From positions 124,001 through 188,000 of the forward strand of contig NZ_MLAL01000045.1 of assembly GCF_001875665.1 (NCBI RefSeq): a DNA stretch of 64,000 nucleotides. Direction: 5' to 3'. This stretch comes from Corynebacterium sp. NML130628. GTDB taxonomy: Bacteria > Actinomycetota > Actinomycetes > Mycobacteriales > Mycobacteriaceae. The position numbers and the translations under genes were made by a program. Shown here in pieces: positions 35,996 to 42,592 of the stretch (its first letter is position 1; each line of letters starts with the position of its first letter). The notes beneath the pieces are model-generated. The model did no database searches. It was not told the DNA's origin and was given only the letters and a program-made list of their open reading frames with translations.

Positions 35996-37498
35996 CTACC
36001 CGAGCTCCCCAGTGAGCTTTCCGTGAAATTCCGTTGCGCTCGGGTTCATGCCGACAAAGCGCACGTGCTTGCCGCGCTCTGCGTACTTTTGCTCAATACT
36101 GTCGAGCGCCGCCACCGTCGACGCGTCCCAAATATGCGCGCGGTGCAAGTCCACGACGACCTCTTCCGGGTCCTCCGAGTACATAAACAAAGTGGTCAGG
36201 TCATTCGAGGAAGCGAACAGCAGTTGGCCGGAGACTACGTAGTGCGCTTCGCCGTCGATGACTTCGCGGGTCACCTCAACCAGGTGGGCGACGTTTCGCA
36301 CGAAGATGACGGACGCCACCAACACACCCACCACGACACCGATGGCCAGGTTGTTCGTCGCCAGCACCACCGCCACCGTGATGAGCATAATCACGGTTTC
36401 CGACACCGGCAGCTTGCGCAGCGTGCTTGGCATCACCGAGTGCCAATCGAACGTGCCCACCGACACCATCACCATCACGGCGACCAGCGCTGCCATCGGA
36501 ATCATGGCGACGTACTCGCCGAACGCAAGCATCAGAATGAGCAGGAACGCGCCCGCCAAAAATGTGGAGATGCGGGTCCGCGCCCCGGAGACCTTCACGT
36601 TGATCATGGACTGCCCGATCATGGCGCAGCCGCCCATCCCGCCGAACAGGCCGGTAGCGATGTTGGCGACGCCCTGCCCCCAGCTCTCGCGGGTCTTGTT
36701 GGAGTGCGTGTCCGTGACTTCGTCGATAAGCTTCGCAGTCATCAGCGACTCCATCAGGCCGACGAGCGCCACGCCGAGCGAGTACGGCGCGATGATCCGA
36801 AGCGTCTCCCAGGTCAGTGGCACGTGCGGGATGAAAAATTCGGGCAGGCTGCTCGGCAGCTCGCCGCGATCCCCGACCGTCGGCACAGGTGCCTTGACCG
36901 CAACTGCGATGAGCGTCACCACGACGATTGCGACGAGCGGCGCCGGGACTGCCTGCGTAAACTTCGGCATGACCACCATGATCACGATGGCCAGCGCCAG
37001 CAGTGGGTACACCGCCCAGTGGTGACCGAAAATTTCGGGCAGCTGCGCCACAAAAATAAGGATCGCTAGCGCGTTCACGAAGCCGATCATCACGCTACGC
37101 GGCAAGAAGCGCATCAGCGTTGCGACGCCACCAACGGCGAGCAGGATCTGGAACACCCCGGCGAGCATGATGGCCGCCACCATGTAGTCGTAGCCGTAAT
37201 CGCGGACCAGTGGTGCAATCACCAGGGCGACCGCACCGGTGGCGGCCGCGATCATGGCGGGGCGCCCGCCCGTAATCGCAATCACCATCGCCATGATGAA
37301 GGAGGAATACAGCCCGATCTTCGGGTCAACGCCTGCGATGATGGAGAAGCTGATCGCCTCCGGGATCAGCGCCAGCGCCACAACTAGCCCGGCGAGGATC
37401 TCCTTCGTCAGGATGCGTGGTGTCTTCAGCGCCGTCGCCACCGAGGGTTCCGGCTCGTAACGGCGCGTGTTTTCCGTGGTCAGCACGGTGGCTGCCAT
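35996..37498 (-). CDS. SulP-family anion permease with STAS domain
   Basis: 500 residues from ATG 37498 (GGAG 8 nt upstream; an in-frame GTG at 37507 is less likely). A polytopic membrane domain (about 25-400) begins [23 protein letters not shown], and a C-terminal STAS domain (about 405-495) follows. SulP carriers move sulfate, bicarbonate or dicarboxylates; which one is not evident. It starts 23 bp after the ABC permease stop and ends 52 bp before glmS, so it may be the last gene of the adaptor-permease operon. Confidence 0.88.
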
Positions 37499-37521
37499 AT
37501 GTGTCACTCCAAACGTTGATG

Positions 37522-38784
37522 TTATTCGTAGCGCAGGGCTTCGATCGGATTCATTCTCGAGGCGCGGTTGGCCGGGTAGTAGCCGAAGAACAGGCCAATC
37601 AGGAGCGCGAACACCAGTGAGAGTAGCACTGCCGTGATCGGCGGCAGCACAAAGGCGTTAAGCAGCAGCGCACCCAGCATGCCGAAACCCGCCCCCACGA
37701 CCACGCCGAACACGCCGCCGATCAGGCAGACAATCATCGCTTCGGTGACGAACTGGGTGCGGATCATCCGGCGCGTCGCACCCAACGCCATACGCACACC
37801 GATCTCGCGGGTGCGTTCCGTCACGGTAATCAGCATGATGTTCATCACACCGATGCCACCGACCAGCAGCGAGATCCCCCCAATTGCGGAAACGACCACG
37901 CTCATGGTCGTGAGCATCTGGTTGAGCTGATCGATGTCACGCTTCGTGTCGGCAACTTTTGCCCGGAATTCGGAGTCATCCGCGTAGGCCCGGTCCGCCC
38001 ACGCCTGGACGTCCTTCGCCACCTGATCTGTGTCCGCCCCTTCGGCGACCCGCACGCTCACCATGCTCACGCCAGGCACCGGTGTGCGCACCATGTCCGG
38101 CTGGACCGTGTACGGCACCGCCATCATCGCCTGCGAAAAATCCCCCACCAGCATGCCCTTTTTCTCAAAGTGCCCATACGCGCCAACCACCTGCACAGAC
38201 GCGTATTGCCCGCCGATGTCCAGCTCAACCTCTTGGCCCACCGCCGACTCCGGATCGTTATTGAACAGCTGCTCCACCACCTCCGGCGAAACTACCGCCA
38301 CGGGACGGTTCGCTTCAATATCGTCCTTGGTGAGGAAACGCCCGGCGGTCAGCGGCAGGTTCTGCATTTCCAGCTGGTCAGCGTTGACAAAACTCACCAT
38401 CGTGGTGCCGTGCGCCAGCCCGCGCGTGGTCTGGGCTTGGGTACTGTCCAGCTCGAACGCAATTCCCTTCGCCTGCGTACCGAGTTCCGCGCGCAGGTCC
38501 TCGATCATGTCGGGGGTGAGTTTGGAGGCGTCGTCAATCTCTTGGAACATGTAGCGGGCGGCCTCGCTGTCGTCCTCCTGGCGGGGTTTTACCTCGAGGT
38601 GGACGTCGTGAATGCCGAACTGCTCCAGGCTGTCCAGCGTCTGCTTCTGCATCGCTTTGCCCAGCGTCATGATCGCGATCACCGACGCGATGCCGATGAT
38701 CACGCCGAGCAGCGTCAACGCCGAGCGCATCTTGTTCGCCCGCAGGCTCACCGTGGCGAGCCTGACGGATTCGCGCGGGTTCAC
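37522..38784 (-). CDS. MacB-like ABC transporter permease (no ATPase domain)
   Basis: 420 residues. The N-terminal helix is SLRANKMRSALTLLGVIIG, an extracytoplasmic MacB_PCD-type domain spans about 50-275, and three FtsX-type helices lie near the C-terminus (VVSAIGGISLLVGGIGVMNI, TRREIGVRMALGATRR-like sequence, and NPIEALRYE at the end). No nucleotide-binding motifs are present. The start overlaps the adaptor stop by 4 bp. In MacAB-type systems an ATPase subunit is usually encoded alongside; none is found here. Confidence 0.87.
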   Translation of the reverse strand: MNPRESVRLATVSLRANKMRSALTLLGVIIGIASVIAIMTLGKAMQKQTLDSLEQFGIHDVHLEVKPRQEDDSEAARYMFQEIDDASKLTPDMIEDLRAELGTQAKGIAFELDSTQAQTTRGLAHGTTMVSFVNADQLEMQNLPLTAGRFLTKDDIEANRPVAVVSPEVVEQLFNNDPESAVGQEVELDIGGQYASVQVVGAYGHFEKKGMLVGDFSQAMMAVPYTVQPDMVRTPVPGVSMVSVRVAEGADTDQVAKDVQAWADRAYADDSEFRAKVADTKRDIDQLNQMLTTMSVVVSAIGGISLLVGGIGVMNIMLITVTERTREIGVRMALGATRRMIRTQFVTEAMIVCLIGGVFGVVVGAGFGMLGALLLNAFVLPPITAVLLSLVFALLIGLFFGYYPANRASRMNPIEALRYE

Positions 38785-40382
38785 TCCTGCTCCTCAACCA
38801 AGGTCACGGTGGCACCGACGCGCTCACGGTACTCGGCCGGCTTGTTCAGCACCCTCGTCCCCTTTTCGACGCCCTCTACGACCACATCCGAATCTGATAC
38901 CAGACCAACCTTGACCGGTGTCTTCACAACCTCGAACTTGTCCCCGTCATCCTTCGGGCGCAGCGTGTACACCGAGTAACTGCCGTTCTCGTCCACGACC
39001 GCCTCGCGTGGCACGGCGAGCGCACCCTTCGCGGACTCCGTCGTGATCTGTGCCTTCGCCGTGCCGCCGATCTTCAGCCCCTCGGTATCCCCCAGGACTT
39101 CAATCTCTACGGGGAACTCCGGGCGCGCAGCCTGCGCCGACGCGCCCTCCGCCGCAGCTTGCGGTTCCGCGACCGAAGAAACATCCAGTACGCGGCCCTT
39201 AAACTTCTTCGCGCCGGTGCCAGGTGTGGTGAACGTGACCGCATCGCCCGGCTTCATCTTCGCCGAGTCCAGTTCCTTCACGTTCGCGCGCAGCACCAGC
39301 CGGTTCGGGTCCGCCACAGAGAGCAGATAGCCCGCCGGAGCCTGCCCCTGCTTCACCGCGACCTCGGCTACCACGCCACCGAGCGGGGCACGCACCTGGC
39401 CCGACGCCACGTCGACCTCAAGCTGCGCGATCGACTGTCCAGCCGCTGCCTGCGCTGCCTGCACCCCGCGCTGCGCCTGCTGCACCGCCGCCGCCTGGGA
39501 ATCGAGCTGCTGCTGGGCGGCGAGTTTCGCCACCTCAAGTCCGACCGCTGCCTCCGCCTTCGCATCAAACGCCTGGGCAACCGCGCGCTGCTTCGCCGCA
39601 AGGTCCGCGTCAGTGTCGTTGAGTGCGGCGTCGTACGCCTTTTGTGCCGCGGACAGGCTGTGCTTTGCGCCGCGGTAGCGTTCGTCGGCTTCCAGCTTGC
39701 TCAGCAGCGGCTGCACAGCGTCGTCTTTTGCCATCCCCGATTGGTAAATGCCATGGTTGCCGCGCACCGACTCCAGCGCCGCCGTCAACGCATCACGGCG
39801 CGCCGAGTCCACGCCCTGCGCCTGCGTGAGCAGCGTGCTGTCCAGTCCCGCCGCCACGGCCTTCTTGCGTTGCTCAAAGACCGCGGTAGCTTCCTGCAGC
39901 TGGCCATCAGCCTGTCGAAATGCCGCCTCCGCCTGCGTCACCTGCGGGTTGAGGCCACGCTGCATCGCATCGTTGGACTGCTGGTATGCCTGCTGCGCCT
40001 GCTCGAGCTGGTTTTGCGCCGCGACGTCTGCCGAGATCTGCTGTGCGCGCTGCGTATCAATCTCACGCTGGACTCCCGACGTATCCAGAACGGCGACGAC
40101 CTGGCCGGCCTCGACGCGCTGCCCCACCTTCACGTTCAGGGCTGTGACCGGGCCGGTCAGGTGCGTCGTCAACGCCGTGACCGAGGCCGCCTCCACCGTC
40201 GCGGTAACCGGCACCTTGGCTGCAACATCGCGTGGCGCAAGCTCCGTCGTGTCGGCCGCCATCACCGGCTGGCCGCCCCCGAACCCGCACGCAGTGGTAG
40301 AGACAAGAAGACAAACCCCGAGCCCCACGGTTGCGAGGGCTCGGGAAACGACATGATTCGTTCGGCGCAGTCCTTTATTCAT
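38781..40382 (-). CDS. HlyD/MacA-like periplasmic adaptor, possible lipoprotein
   Basis: 533 residues. The N-terminal hydrophobic stretch ends LLVSTTACGFGGG, a plausible though non-canonical lipobox with Cys32. A biotinyl-lipoyl-like half (VTALNVKVGQRVEAGQVVAV) precedes a long Ala/Gln-rich coiled coil (about 115-310), the second lipoyl half (VRAPLGGVVAEVAVKQGQAP) and beta-barrel domains. It would bridge the MacB-like permease and the cell wall. TATCCT ends 7 nt before the ATG, so it may be leaderless. First gene of the adaptor-permease-(SulP) group. Confidence 0.82.
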   Translation of the reverse strand: MNKGLRRTNHVVSRALATVGLGVCLLVSTTACGFGGGQPVMAADTTELAPRDVAAKVPVTATVEAASVTALTTHLTGPVTALNVKVGQRVEAGQVVAVLDTSGVQREIDTQRAQQISADVAAQNQLEQAQQAYQQSNDAMQRGLNPQVTQAEAAFRQADGQLQEATAVFEQRKKAVAAGLDSTLLTQAQGVDSARRDALTAALESVRGNHGIYQSGMAKDDAVQPLLSKLEADERYRGAKHSLSAAQKAYDAALNDTDADLAAKQRAVAQAFDAKAEAAVGLEVAKLAAQQQLDSQAAAVQQAQRGVQAAQAAAGQSIAQLEVDVASGQVRAPLGGVVAEVAVKQGQAPAGYLLSVADPNRLVLRANVKELDSAKMKPGDAVTFTTPGTGAKKFKGRVLDVSSVAEPQAAAEGASAQAARPEFPVEIEVLGDTEGLKIGGTAKAQITTESAKGALAVPREAVVDENGSYSVYTLRPKDDGDKFEVVKTPVKVGLVSDSDVVVEGVEKGTRVLNKPAEYRERVGATVTLVEEQE

Positions 40383-40409: not shown

Positions 40410-40634
40410 TCAATCAGAAGTTTTACGGATATAAAACTCCGGGTGATCCGCGCGCAGCAACGTGTTGCCTGTCAGGCCACACCACGCGCGAATATCGATG
40501 TCGATTGTCTCGTTCGTGGACCGCAAATGCAGCACTTCCCCCTCCTTGATCTGGTCACGGAATAAGAGGAAGAGGCGCACCAGGACATCACCGCACGCGA
40601 TGTCCTGGGCGTCCCAGTAGTGATCCTCATGCAT
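40410..40634 (-). CDS. Stand-alone TusA-like sulfur carrier domain
   Basis: 74 residues that align end to end with TusA: WDAQDIACGDVL corresponds to the LDALGLRCPEPV region, EGEVLHLRSTNETIDIDIRA to the central strand/helix, and WCGLTGNTLL plus FYIRK to the C-terminal half. The active-site cysteine (Cys14) is kept but the CPxP prolines are replaced (CGDV). Cys52 is a second conserved position. TusA proteins pass persulfide sulfur between partners. The ATG overlaps the end of the upstream fusion gene by 8 bp. It closes a three-gene sulfur operon. Confidence 0.75.
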   Translation of the reverse strand: MHEDHYWDAQDIACGDVLVRLFLLFRDQIKEGEVLHLRSTNETIDIDIRAWCGLTGNTLLRADHPEFYIRKTSD

Positions 40635-42219
40635 TGCGACGCGCCATCACGTTGTCGCGGGCCTGCACGATGAGCGCGAGCTGCTGCTCCGCCAAGTTCG
40701 CGGCCACGATCGGGTTATCGGCGAACGTCGCGAAGCCGCAGTCGGTGGAGAAGACCACCCGGTCAGCCCCGAAGGTGTCCAGGGCACGCTCGATGCGTTC
40801 CTCCACAGCCTCGACCGGCTCCAACTCTTGGAGCTTCTGGTTCAGCACGCCAACGCAAATACGTTGGTCGTCGCGGATTCCCTCTAGAGCGCGGATGTCG
40901 CCGGCCCGCGGCGTTGCTAGCTCCATGGAGAGCATGCCGACGTTCAGCGAGGCGAACAGCTCCACGAACGGCGCGTAATCACCCGTCAGAGCCGCCGACT
41001 CGTCCGTGGTCCAGTTCCCGCGGCACACATGCAGCGCCAACCGGTCCTTCGGCAGCCCCGCGGTGAGCTCATCGAGCAACGACTTCGCGAACTCCAGCTC
41101 CTCGTCTACCGTGCCTTCCAGGCCGTCGAGCGCACCGCACATGAACGTACGTCCACCCCCACCTGCCTGCCCATACACGACCTCGGTCAGCACCGGCTCG
41201 TCGATCTGCACCAGCGCCGTGCCCTTCGCCAACAGCTCGTGAAGCTCCTCGCGCAGCACCCGGACAATGTCCTTCGACATCTCCTCGCGGTTCTCGTACG
41301 CGCGGTCGGAGACGCACTCCATCCACATCGTGCGAGTCAACAGATACGGCCCCGGCAAGCACACCTTCACCGGACGGTCAGTGACCTGCTGCACGAACTC
41401 AACCTCGTGCGCAACCAGCGGCTTATCGCGACCAAGCGGACCGAATACCGCAGGGTGTCGCACCTCGCCTGCTGGGACATCCAACGCGCGAAGCTCCCGC
41501 TCGAACTCCTCAGGGTCATCTACATACGGCAGCAGGTCCGTAATCGGGATGAGCTGGCAGTTCTGCAGGCGCCCCGCGACAAAGCTCGAGTAGTTGTCGC
41601 GCCGCATCTCACCATCAGTAACGACGTCGACCCCGGCCCGCTCCTGCGCCGCCAGGACCAGCCGCACAGCATCGTCCGCTGTCGCCTGGAACGTGTCCTC
41701 CTCCATGCGCTCCTCCAGGTGGCGGTGCAGCGCATCCAGCAGCCACGGCGAGCGTGGCCAGGAGCCCATCGTCAACACCGACCCAGCCGGTATCTCCGGC
41801 GCTGGCGCAGGCTCAGGTAAGACCTTCGCAATCGTCGGCTCCACAACCTCCTGCGTGACCGGCATCTGTGGCCGCTTACGCGGACCCTTCTTTTTCTTCG
41901 GACGCACAGCCTCCGGCGCAGCGGGAATGTCTGCGACCTCCACAGGTTTCGAGAACGCCCCCTTCGACACGAGGAACCGCCACCGTTTATGATCCGGCTC
42001 CTCCACCACGTTGACCAGGTCATTGCCAGTCAAGTTACACCAGGAAGGCAGATCGACCTTCACTGTGGAGTCGTAGGAAACAATCTCCAACAGCTGCCCC
42101 GCCTCAAGCGGATCAATGTTCTTTCGAATCAACAACAACAACCCGTTGCCACAGTCCAAATCGCCGCCATCAAAGCTGGCGTCGGGAGCGTACGGGTGCA
42201 GGTTCTCAGTCTTCGACAT
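40627..42219 (-). CDS. TusA-like domain fused to a MetE-like (cobalamin-independent methionine synthase) domain
   Basis: 530 residues in three parts. Residues 15-88 are a TusA-like domain with Cys23 (LDCGNGLLLL, again CG instead of CP) and Cys61. Residues 90-145 are a Lys/Pro-rich linker. Residues 146-530 are a MetE C-terminal/UROD-type barrel with the zinc set His397-x-Cys399 (ALHVCRGNW), Glu433 (SMELATP) and Cys494 (STDCGFATF), plus the QIDEPVL motif. This barrel moves methyl groups onto zinc-bound thiols. The N-terminal MetE half that binds folate is absent. A sulfur carrier joined to a thiol methyltransferase suggests a persulfide- or thiol-fed methyl transfer; this is inference. It is 7 bp after dsrE. 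Confidence 0.75.
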   Translation of the reverse strand: MSKTENLHPYAPDASFDGGDLDCGNGLLLLIRKNIDPLEAGQLLEIVSYDSTVKVDLPSWCNLTGNDLVNVVEEPDHKRWRFLVSKGAFSKPVEVADIPAAPEAVRPKKKKGPRKRPQMPVTQEVVEPTIAKVLPEPAPAPEIPAGSVLTMGSWPRSPWLLDALHRHLEERMEEDTFQATADDAVRLVLAAQERAGVDVVTDGEMRRDNYSSFVAGRLQNCQLIPITDLLPYVDDPEEFERELRALDVPAGEVRHPAVFGPLGRDKPLVAHEVEFVQQVTDRPVKVCLPGPYLLTRTMWMECVSDRAYENREEMSKDIVRVLREELHELLAKGTALVQIDEPVLTEVVYGQAGGGGRTFMCGALDGLEGTVDEELEFAKSLLDELTAGLPKDRLALHVCRGNWTTDESAALTGDYAPFVELFASLNVGMLSMELATPRAGDIRALEGIRDDQRICVGVLNQKLQELEPVEAVEERIERALDTFGADRVVFSTDCGFATFADNPIVAANLAEQQLALIVQARDNVMARRNA

Positions 42220-42226
42220 TGGTGCC

Positions 42227-42592
42227 CTAGTAGGAAACGCTCGGGGTGCCGTCCGCTAGGAACTCAACCAGCTTCGCGCCGCCGACGATGGTGGCGCCGT
42301 CGATAAGATCTTCTTCCCCAAAACCGCGCTTCTTGGCACACGGTGCACACACGTACAGCTTGCCCTCGGCAGCAACGAAATTCTCGATGAGCTCCTTGAT
42401 CGGCGCGAAGCCTTCCTCGTGAACGTCGTCTGCGTAGCCCTTCACCGCAAGGCGAGCGCCCTCGGACGACAGAAACACCATCGTGTCCTGCGCAGAACCG
42501 ACGGCAGCATTCGCGACGACGAAGCCGAGCGTGGCCATGTCCTCGTTGTCCTTTGCGTGCGCAATGGTGACACAAAACTTACCGGTACCCAT
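42227..42592 (-). CDS. DsrE-family small sulfur-relay protein
   Basis: 121 residues from ATG 42592 (ribosome site AAGGAG; the frame is open 24 codons upstream). The fold-typical sequence KFCVTIAHAKDNEDMATLGF is followed by VGSAQDTMVFLSSEGARLAV and the cysteine motif LYVCAPCAKKRG (Cys82, Cys85), where DsrE-type proteins carry persulfide. A possible -10 TACAAT lies at 42632-42637 on the minus strand, about 40 bp upstream. It is first in an operon with the TusA-MetE fusion (7-bp gap) and the small TusA-like gene, downstream of the rpsQ terminator. Confidence 0.8.
   Translation of the reverse strand: MGTGKFCVTIAHAKDNEDMATLGFVVANAAVGSAQDTMVFLSSEGARLAVKGYADDVHEEGFAPIKELIENFVAAEGKLYVCAPCAKKRGFGEEDLIDGATIVGGAKLVEFLADGTPSVSY

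Follow-up and report, generated by a model that had tools for sequence, protein, structure and literature searches.

How might the catalytic half of a methionine synthase be supplied with a methyl group when a sulfur carrier domain stands in place of its folate-binding half? The question is raised by a three-gene operon (dsrE, a tusA-metE core fusion and a second tusA) of Corynebacterium sp. NML130628, which lies in the 64,000-nucleotide stretch analysed here and termed the window (contig NZ_MLAL01000045.1, positions 124,001 to 188,000). Synthesis of methionine and S-adenosylmethionine (SAM) requires a methyl donor, a role filled by folate and cobalamin in most of the cases described. Folate-independent 'core' methionine synthases, described by Price and co-workers, work without the folate half and obtain the methyl group from other carriers; one of them, MesD, for which a partner protein, MesX, was proposed as the methyl supplier, showed another route without revealing its methyl donor in the sections of the paper used here, where the protein of PDB entry 3RPD is called a MesD protein (PMC7857596).

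We tentatively propose that the DsrE protein, the TusA-MetE core fusion and the second TusA together make up a folate-independent methionine synthase, in which a TusA cysteine would deliver the methyl group to homocysteine held on zinc. Sequence databases already contain the fusion, labelled for example as a methionine synthase or a TusA family protein; the open-access literature that we searched yielded no published description of it. If the proposal is true, sulfur carriers paired with a MetE core in several phyla, in some cases in genomes where searches for the standard enzymes came back empty, would fill a metabolic gap, the database name of some members (folate-dependent methionine synthase) would need correction, and the identity of the methyl donor would become a directly testable question.

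Architecture of the operon

The genes occupy the minus strand of the window in the order dsrE, fusion, tusA. Their open reading frames (ORFs) are separated by a 7-bp gap and then overlap by 8 bp, the tight packing described in the original prediction, which had been made from the sequence of the window. The parts are as follows.

42227..42592, minus strand: dsrE, a DsrE/DsrF-family protein of 121 amino acids (aa) with a Cys82-x-Pro-Cys85 motif (ORF, translation, and Pfam PF02635 at 57.3 bits against a cut-off of 22.7)
40627..42219, minus strand: tusA-metE core fusion, 530 aa (ORF, translation)
41956..42189, minus strand: TusA-like domain of the fusion, residues 11-88, with Cys23-Gly24 at the start of the first helix (PDB TusA match at residues 11-87, predicted fold)
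40630..41799, minus strand: MetE-core barrel of the fusion, residues 141-530, with zinc ligands, homocysteine-pocket residues and the extra Cys302 and Cys361 (alignment to 3RPD and MetE structures)
40410..40634, minus strand: stand-alone TusA-like protein, 74 aa, with Cys14-Gly15 (ORF; profile match to E. coli TusA/YhhP)

Compared with two near relatives, the three genes have ratios of nonsynonymous to synonymous substitution rates (dN/dS) of 0.019-0.063 (0.019 and 0.044 for the fusion alone), and are therefore under strong purifying selection.

Profile searches bear out the proposed joining of a TusA domain to half of a MetE. The N-terminal domain, whose match to TusA profiles had been considered decisive for this assignment, scores 32.9 bits over residues 28-86 against the Pfam TusA cut-off of 28.6, and the barrel scores 82.4 bits as Meth_synt_2 against a cut-off of 21. 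The folate-binding half is missing, as originally noted: PF08267 reaches 19.2 bits, under its cut-off of 27. Neither does the fusion belong to the MetE family as defined by TIGR01371 (68.9 bits, cut-off 930), and all the NCBIfam methionine synthase models that it matched give it sub-threshold scores. As a single sequence the stand-alone TusA scores 24.4 bits in Pfam, under the cut-off of 28.6; a profile of 24 such sequences matches E. coli TusA/YhhP at 6e-13 and the TusA part of the fusion with 99% probability. The predicted model of the fused TusA domain has the beta-alpha-beta-alpha-beta-beta order of the TusA fold. For the barrel, 3RPD is the best match by sequence and by VIA-align; Foldseek, in which a search with the whole fusion probes the barrel only, ranks a Thermotoga MetE just ahead of 3RPD by E-value.

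Three trivial explanations can be set aside. An ordinary folate-dependent MetE is ruled out by the absent folate half and by the failure to find MetF in the genome of the window; a split MetE with its folate half encoded elsewhere is ruled out in the same genome, since a PF08267 search of it at E 0.001 came back empty; and a chance fusion or annotation artefact is ruled out by 120 relatives, among the matches listed, that are at least 60% identical, and by the spread of the fusion loci over several phyla.

Conservation of the zinc site, the pocket and the carrier cysteines

Conservation was assessed in the best 80 of 212 confirmed fusion loci from a scan of named genomes; the counts of DsrE, TusA, PhnE and metY-metX-metW neighbours below refer to the same 80. 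The zinc ligands His397, Cys399, Glu433 and Cys494, which had been predicted as kept, pair with the corresponding residues of 3RPD and are invariant in 78 of 78 aligned sequences. The homocysteine pocket is likewise invariant at Ser153 (80/80), Glu204 (80/80) and Asp340 (79/79), equivalent to Ser433, Glu484 and Asp599 of the E. coli enzyme, so that the fusion has the residues expected of the Mes group. These positions bind homocysteine or methionine in MetE and in 3RPD, according to the sections of PMC7857596 used here; the 3RPD structure was solved with selenomethionine. Judged by its sequence, the fusion would also share the defining make-up of that group, namely the MetE catalytic half with zinc-ligand residues and no folate half.

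Both TusA forms depart from the CPxP motif of the TusA family, as had been noted, in that the active cysteine is kept and the proline is replaced by glycine: every one of the 78 fusions aligned at this position has Cys23-Gly24 (two of the 80 show a gap), as has Cys14-Gly15 every one of the 46 stand-alone proteins aligned at that point, from an alignment of 50 sequences. Further invariant cysteines are Cys61 of the fusion (80/80) and, in the barrel, Cys302 and Cys361. In DsrE, both cysteines and the proline of the CxPC motif are invariant in 73 of 73 aligned relatives.

Distribution and conserved partners

The 80 loci come from Corynebacterium, Propionibacteriaceae, Yaniella, Enteractinococcus, Dermabacter, Planctomycetota, Binatia, Burkholderiales, Anaeromyxobacter, Alphaproteobacteria and others. 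A search for the fusion and its neighbours, proposed with the original prediction, shows the arrangement to be conserved over several phyla: in 77 loci DsrE is no more than 6 kb away from the fusion, and a stand-alone TusA is nearby in 72. These two counts are final tblastn counts; the codon-usage ORF caller used at the loci missed some short genes. The distribution across lineages is patchy. Eight of 141 Corynebacterium genomes carry the fusion, and a phylum-wide search at E 1e-30, with three candidates scored per genome, matched 16 of 396 genomes and recovered the full-length fusion in one, that of the window; it is therefore rare among evenly drawn genomes.

Two kinds of neighbour bear on function. 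In eight loci (seven Binatia/Binatota, one Desulfurellaceae) metY-metX-metW lies directly beside dsrE-tusA-metE in the opposite direction. In one such locus (L042) MetY and MetX are supported by matches to broad Pfam families, TIGR01392 has its best match in MetX of the L043 genome, and MetW was recognised in the sequence by eye. PhnE lies within 6 kb in 17 loci, all from named proteobacteria or Anaeromyxobacter, and 13 of these have the gene order dsrE-phnD-phnE-phnC-tusA-metE. In Duganella (L063), PhnE and PhnC exceed their NCBIfam cut-offs, and PhnD exceeds that of the subfamily model TIGR01098 while falling under that of the PhnD equivalog. With a PhnCDE-type importer at this frequency, a small anion taken up from outside may be the origin of the methyl donor.

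Methionine genes in the genome of the window and in other carriers

Metabolic gaps are given here as absence of profile matches, in one genome per species. Compared with a close relative, in which metE adjoins metF, the genome of the window (G000) shows a clean loss of metE and metF: about 3.4 kb is missing, and the flanks lie 20-24 bp apart on one contig with no N. The deletion site is at G000:C34:89438-89463 (L163, compared with L121), and two near relatives keep both genes. Profile searches of this genome found no MTHFR, PF02574 enzyme or MetH, and metY and metX are retained as open frames. Because MetF was not found, 5-methyltetrahydrofolate (5-methyl-THF) is unlikely to be the methyl source in this genome, and independence from folate, in line with the earlier interpretation, is likely.

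A similar pattern recurs elsewhere. Six carriers (G000, G507 and G540-G543, the latter being Enteractinococcus helveticum, a Micrococcaceae genome and two Yaniella) have a MetX match with metY beside metX, and no MetE, PF02574 enzyme or canonical MetF. The MetX matches are strong at 404-469 bits, though under the TIGR01392 cut-off of 500, and all controls including C. glutamicum fall under it too. In G540-G543 the fusion is the sole PF01717 protein. Since the pocket residues are kept, homocysteine is a more likely methyl acceptor than sulfur, the acceptor first suggested; these six also retain metX beside metY. Among the 141 Corynebacterium genomes, MetE was found in 120 and MetH (PF02965) in 36, and no carrier of the fusion is one of those 36; both are absent from four, two of which carry the fusion (G000 and G507), compared with 6 of the remaining 137 (one-sided Fisher p 0.016, indicative only because the genomes are related). 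Taken together, the metE-metF loss, the gaps in other carriers and the metY-metX-metW neighbours point to methionine synthesis.

A second MetE-core protein of 402 aa is encoded in the genome of the window (G000:C1; L120 6695-7903), and PF01717 finds ORFs of like size in G507, G479, G544 and G545.

A candidate mechanism and its alternatives

Zinc activation of homocysteine combined with a methyl group presented by a TusA cysteine would be the simplest mechanism suggested by the sequences. We postulate that homocysteine would bind in the barrel and be activated on zinc, and that the TusA domain, N-terminal like the folate half of MetE, would present an S-linked methyl on Cys23, either as a thioether or as a methyl-persulfide. 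DsrE and free TusA could load or clear Cys23 by thiol exchange, and a methyl linked through a persulfide would probably come with a better leaving group than one in a simple thioether. In its fullest form, the proposal is that DsrE and TusA, in place of folate and cobalamin, hand a sulfur-bound methyl to the fused zinc barrel for transfer to homocysteine, and that a PhnCDE-type importer supplies this relay in many bacteria; this would make a fifth folate-independent family and the first protein-bound methyl-sulfur carrier of its kind, and we regard this wider claim as rather doubtful.

A number of observations weigh against the methyl-carrier proposal. Thioethers donate methyl groups poorly on chemical grounds, and the known role of TusA is to carry sulfur. 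In the predicted model the TusA cysteine is not seen at the zinc site, and the predicted local distance difference test score (pLDDT) is below 50 for residues 23-26. No Rfam riboswitch (SAM or cobalamin) reached gathering score ahead of the operon, either in the window or in the 43 of 80 loci scanned, where only tRNAs and one tmRNA were found. Six of the eight Corynebacterium carriers also have MetE. Two Corynebacterium genomes, G442 and G479, have neither MetE, MetH nor the fusion; the first has MetX and is also devoid of PF02574 and PF01717 proteins, and MetX without a known synthase is therefore no proof of a hidden one. In G507 metY (L144 region) reads in two frames. A second MetE-core protein is present in G000, G507, G544 and G545, and may be the main synthase in G000; PF01717 found no counterpart of it in G540-G543. 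G544 and G545 (Helcobacillus and Dermabacter) carry the fusion and gave no MetX, MetE, PF02574 or MTHFR match.

Folate also retains a possible role in other carriers. G540-G543 have a distant MTHFR-like protein (the one tested scored 42 bits, cut-off 294), so that 5-methyl-THF could be the donor there. PF02574 was tested in 48 genomes and matched in 38 (one named Actinomycetota and 37 others, one of these recorded without a phylum name), with a partial match in G562; in those 38 the fusion is therefore an addition, and over the genomes tested it is mostly not the only candidate synthase. The PF02574 and MetE tests were run outside G403, G417, G443, G445, G455, G487 and G536-G539. The Corynebacterium-wide searches cover the first six for MetE and MetH, G536-G538 repeat G445, G417 and G455, and G539 fell under neither. 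MesD, according to the sections of PMC7857596 used here, is likewise an addition in most of its hosts.

The closest competitor keeps much of the earlier interpretation, of which the fusion, the zinc site, the lost folate half and the DsrE and TusA partners (77 and 72 loci) have stood, and the role of sulfur as methyl acceptor is not supported in its first form. Here Cys23 would take sulfane sulfur, as persulfide or thiosulfonate, to zinc for alkylation by, or transfer to, an amino-acid partner, and the product, be it homocysteine, methanethiol or a mixed disulfide, would feed metY-metX. DsrE and TusA are sulfur carriers, and in Metallosphaera DsrE3A passes thiosulfate to TusA as Cys-S-thiosulfonate, as described in the sections of PMC4175335 used here. 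A sulfur anion would suit the PhnE neighbours and the SulP permease of the window and of three Corynebacterium loci; the metY-metX neighbours in eight loci and the SufS-like desulfurase beside the operon in Paracoccus also fit. What leads us to consider this route somewhat unlikely is that the pocket for the amino acid is intact along with the residues of the zinc site, two features that in MetE act on a single thiol substrate, and that G540-G543 would be left without a visible path for turning homocysteine into methionine unless the route yields methanethiol. A methionine synthase that TusA and DsrE merely regulate or protect, for example as a redox switch at the zinc site, with a free small molecule or 5-methyl-THF as donor, would explain the intact pocket, and it draws on the MTHFR-like protein of G540-G543 and on an over-cut-off MTHFR match in all 38 carriers with a PF02574 match. 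We judge it unlikely, given the absent folate half, the lack of any MTHFR match in G000, G507, G544 and G545, and the invariance of Cys23 and Cys61 wherever aligned, which exceeds expectation for a mere regulator.

Slightly less probable again is that the strain of the window is simply a methionine auxotroph, with the metE-metF loss unconnected to an operon that has no part in methionine metabolism. Such a view accords with the retention of metE in six of the eight Corynebacterium carriers, with G442 and G479, which are without MetE, MetH and the operon, and with the PF02574 match in most carriers elsewhere; it sits poorly with the open metY and metX of G000, with the similar pattern in four genomes (Enteractinococcus, two Yaniella and the Micrococcaceae genome), and with metY-metX-metW beside the operon in eight loci. 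Selenium chemistry, with carriers that hand over or methylate selenium in the course of its uptake, its detoxification or the making of selenoproteins, seems improbable to us. In Paracoccus the fusion is followed by selA (TIGR00474, 565 bits, cut-off 268) and trxB, in Anaeromyxobacter (L071) a substrate-binding protein beside the operon scores 365 bits against the 'putative selenate' model TIGR04553 (cut-off 250), and YedF, with TusA-like and DsrE-like domains, is tied to selenium in the sections of PMC5322559 used here. Yet among the loci searched selA is near the fusion in two Paracoccus records only, and in the other two of the three loci scored with TIGR04553, Duganella (L063) at 77 bits and Yaniella (L033) at 50 bits are far under the cut-off.

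Comparison with described systems

The proposed synthase resembles MesD/MesX in having a MetE catalytic half without the folate half, in keeping the zinc ligands and homocysteine-pocket residues, in having a partner proposed to supply the methyl group, and in sharing many hosts with MetH or MetE. It differs in the TusA domain fused in front and in having DsrE and TusA as partners, against MesX for MesD; a search for MesX (PF08908) matched none of 20 genomes, and none of 14 control genomes either. The fusion is 26% identical to 3RPD over the structural alignment, whereas MesD is defined by about 55% or more identity to the A. baylyi protein, and the Mes group has no further domain comparable to TusA, as far as the published sections used here describe it (PMC7857596). 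Unlike MetE (TIGR01371), it has a TusA domain of about 80 residues and a linker where the N-terminal folate half would be.

With known TusA and DsrE carriers, as portrayed in the sections of PMC4175335 used here, the operon shares family membership, the active cysteine at the start of TusA helix 1 and the DsrE-TusA pairing; it is set apart by CG for CPxP in both TusA forms and by the fusion of one TusA to a MetE-core barrel. YedF, in the parts of PMC5322559 used here, also combines TusA with DsrE, whereas here these are separate and the fusion partner is the MetE barrel.

Further neighbours and relatives of the operon

In the window, a SulP-type permease (35996-37507), a MacB-like permease and a MacA-like adaptor follow the operon on the same strand (35996-40382, minus). 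Elsewhere in Corynebacterium, a SulP permease is near the operon in three loci; in L026 it begins 69 bp after tusA.

In eight loci (L060, L076, L082, L083, L086, L095, L100 and L166), a conserved gene pair lies between dsrE and tusA-metE, consisting of c11, about 170 aa and membrane-like (8 loci), and c14, about 510 aa (7 loci). The members tested gave no Pfam or NCBIfam match, and an AlphaFold2 model of the pair had a pLDDT of 45.5, too poor for use. The pair is also present in Paracoccus, with the SufS-like desulfurase upstream and selA-trxB downstream of the fusion; on plasmid pFER4 of Paracoccus ferrooxidans (L166 10548-12919) selA and trxB follow the fusion directly.

A barrel-only relative, 44% identical, occurs in another genome of the phylum (G227; L168 1768-9050). 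It stands behind an Rv1680-like protein related to PhnD and an acyl-CoA dehydrogenase of Rv1679 type, and OsmC is part of the same row. The Rv1679-like and Rv1680-like proteins are both under the cut-offs of those models; the relative once more has a PhnD-type partner, and the TusA parts of the window weakly match the NCBIfam model of Rv1681. A TIGR04282 'arsenosugar' glycosyltransferase is encoded near this barrel. In Bosea (L096 11698-14074), the fusion is followed by what appear by eye to be arsR, two arsenate reductases and an arsenite exporter. In Dermabacter hominis, the operon is closely preceded by a tmRNA gene (L037 9445-9815).

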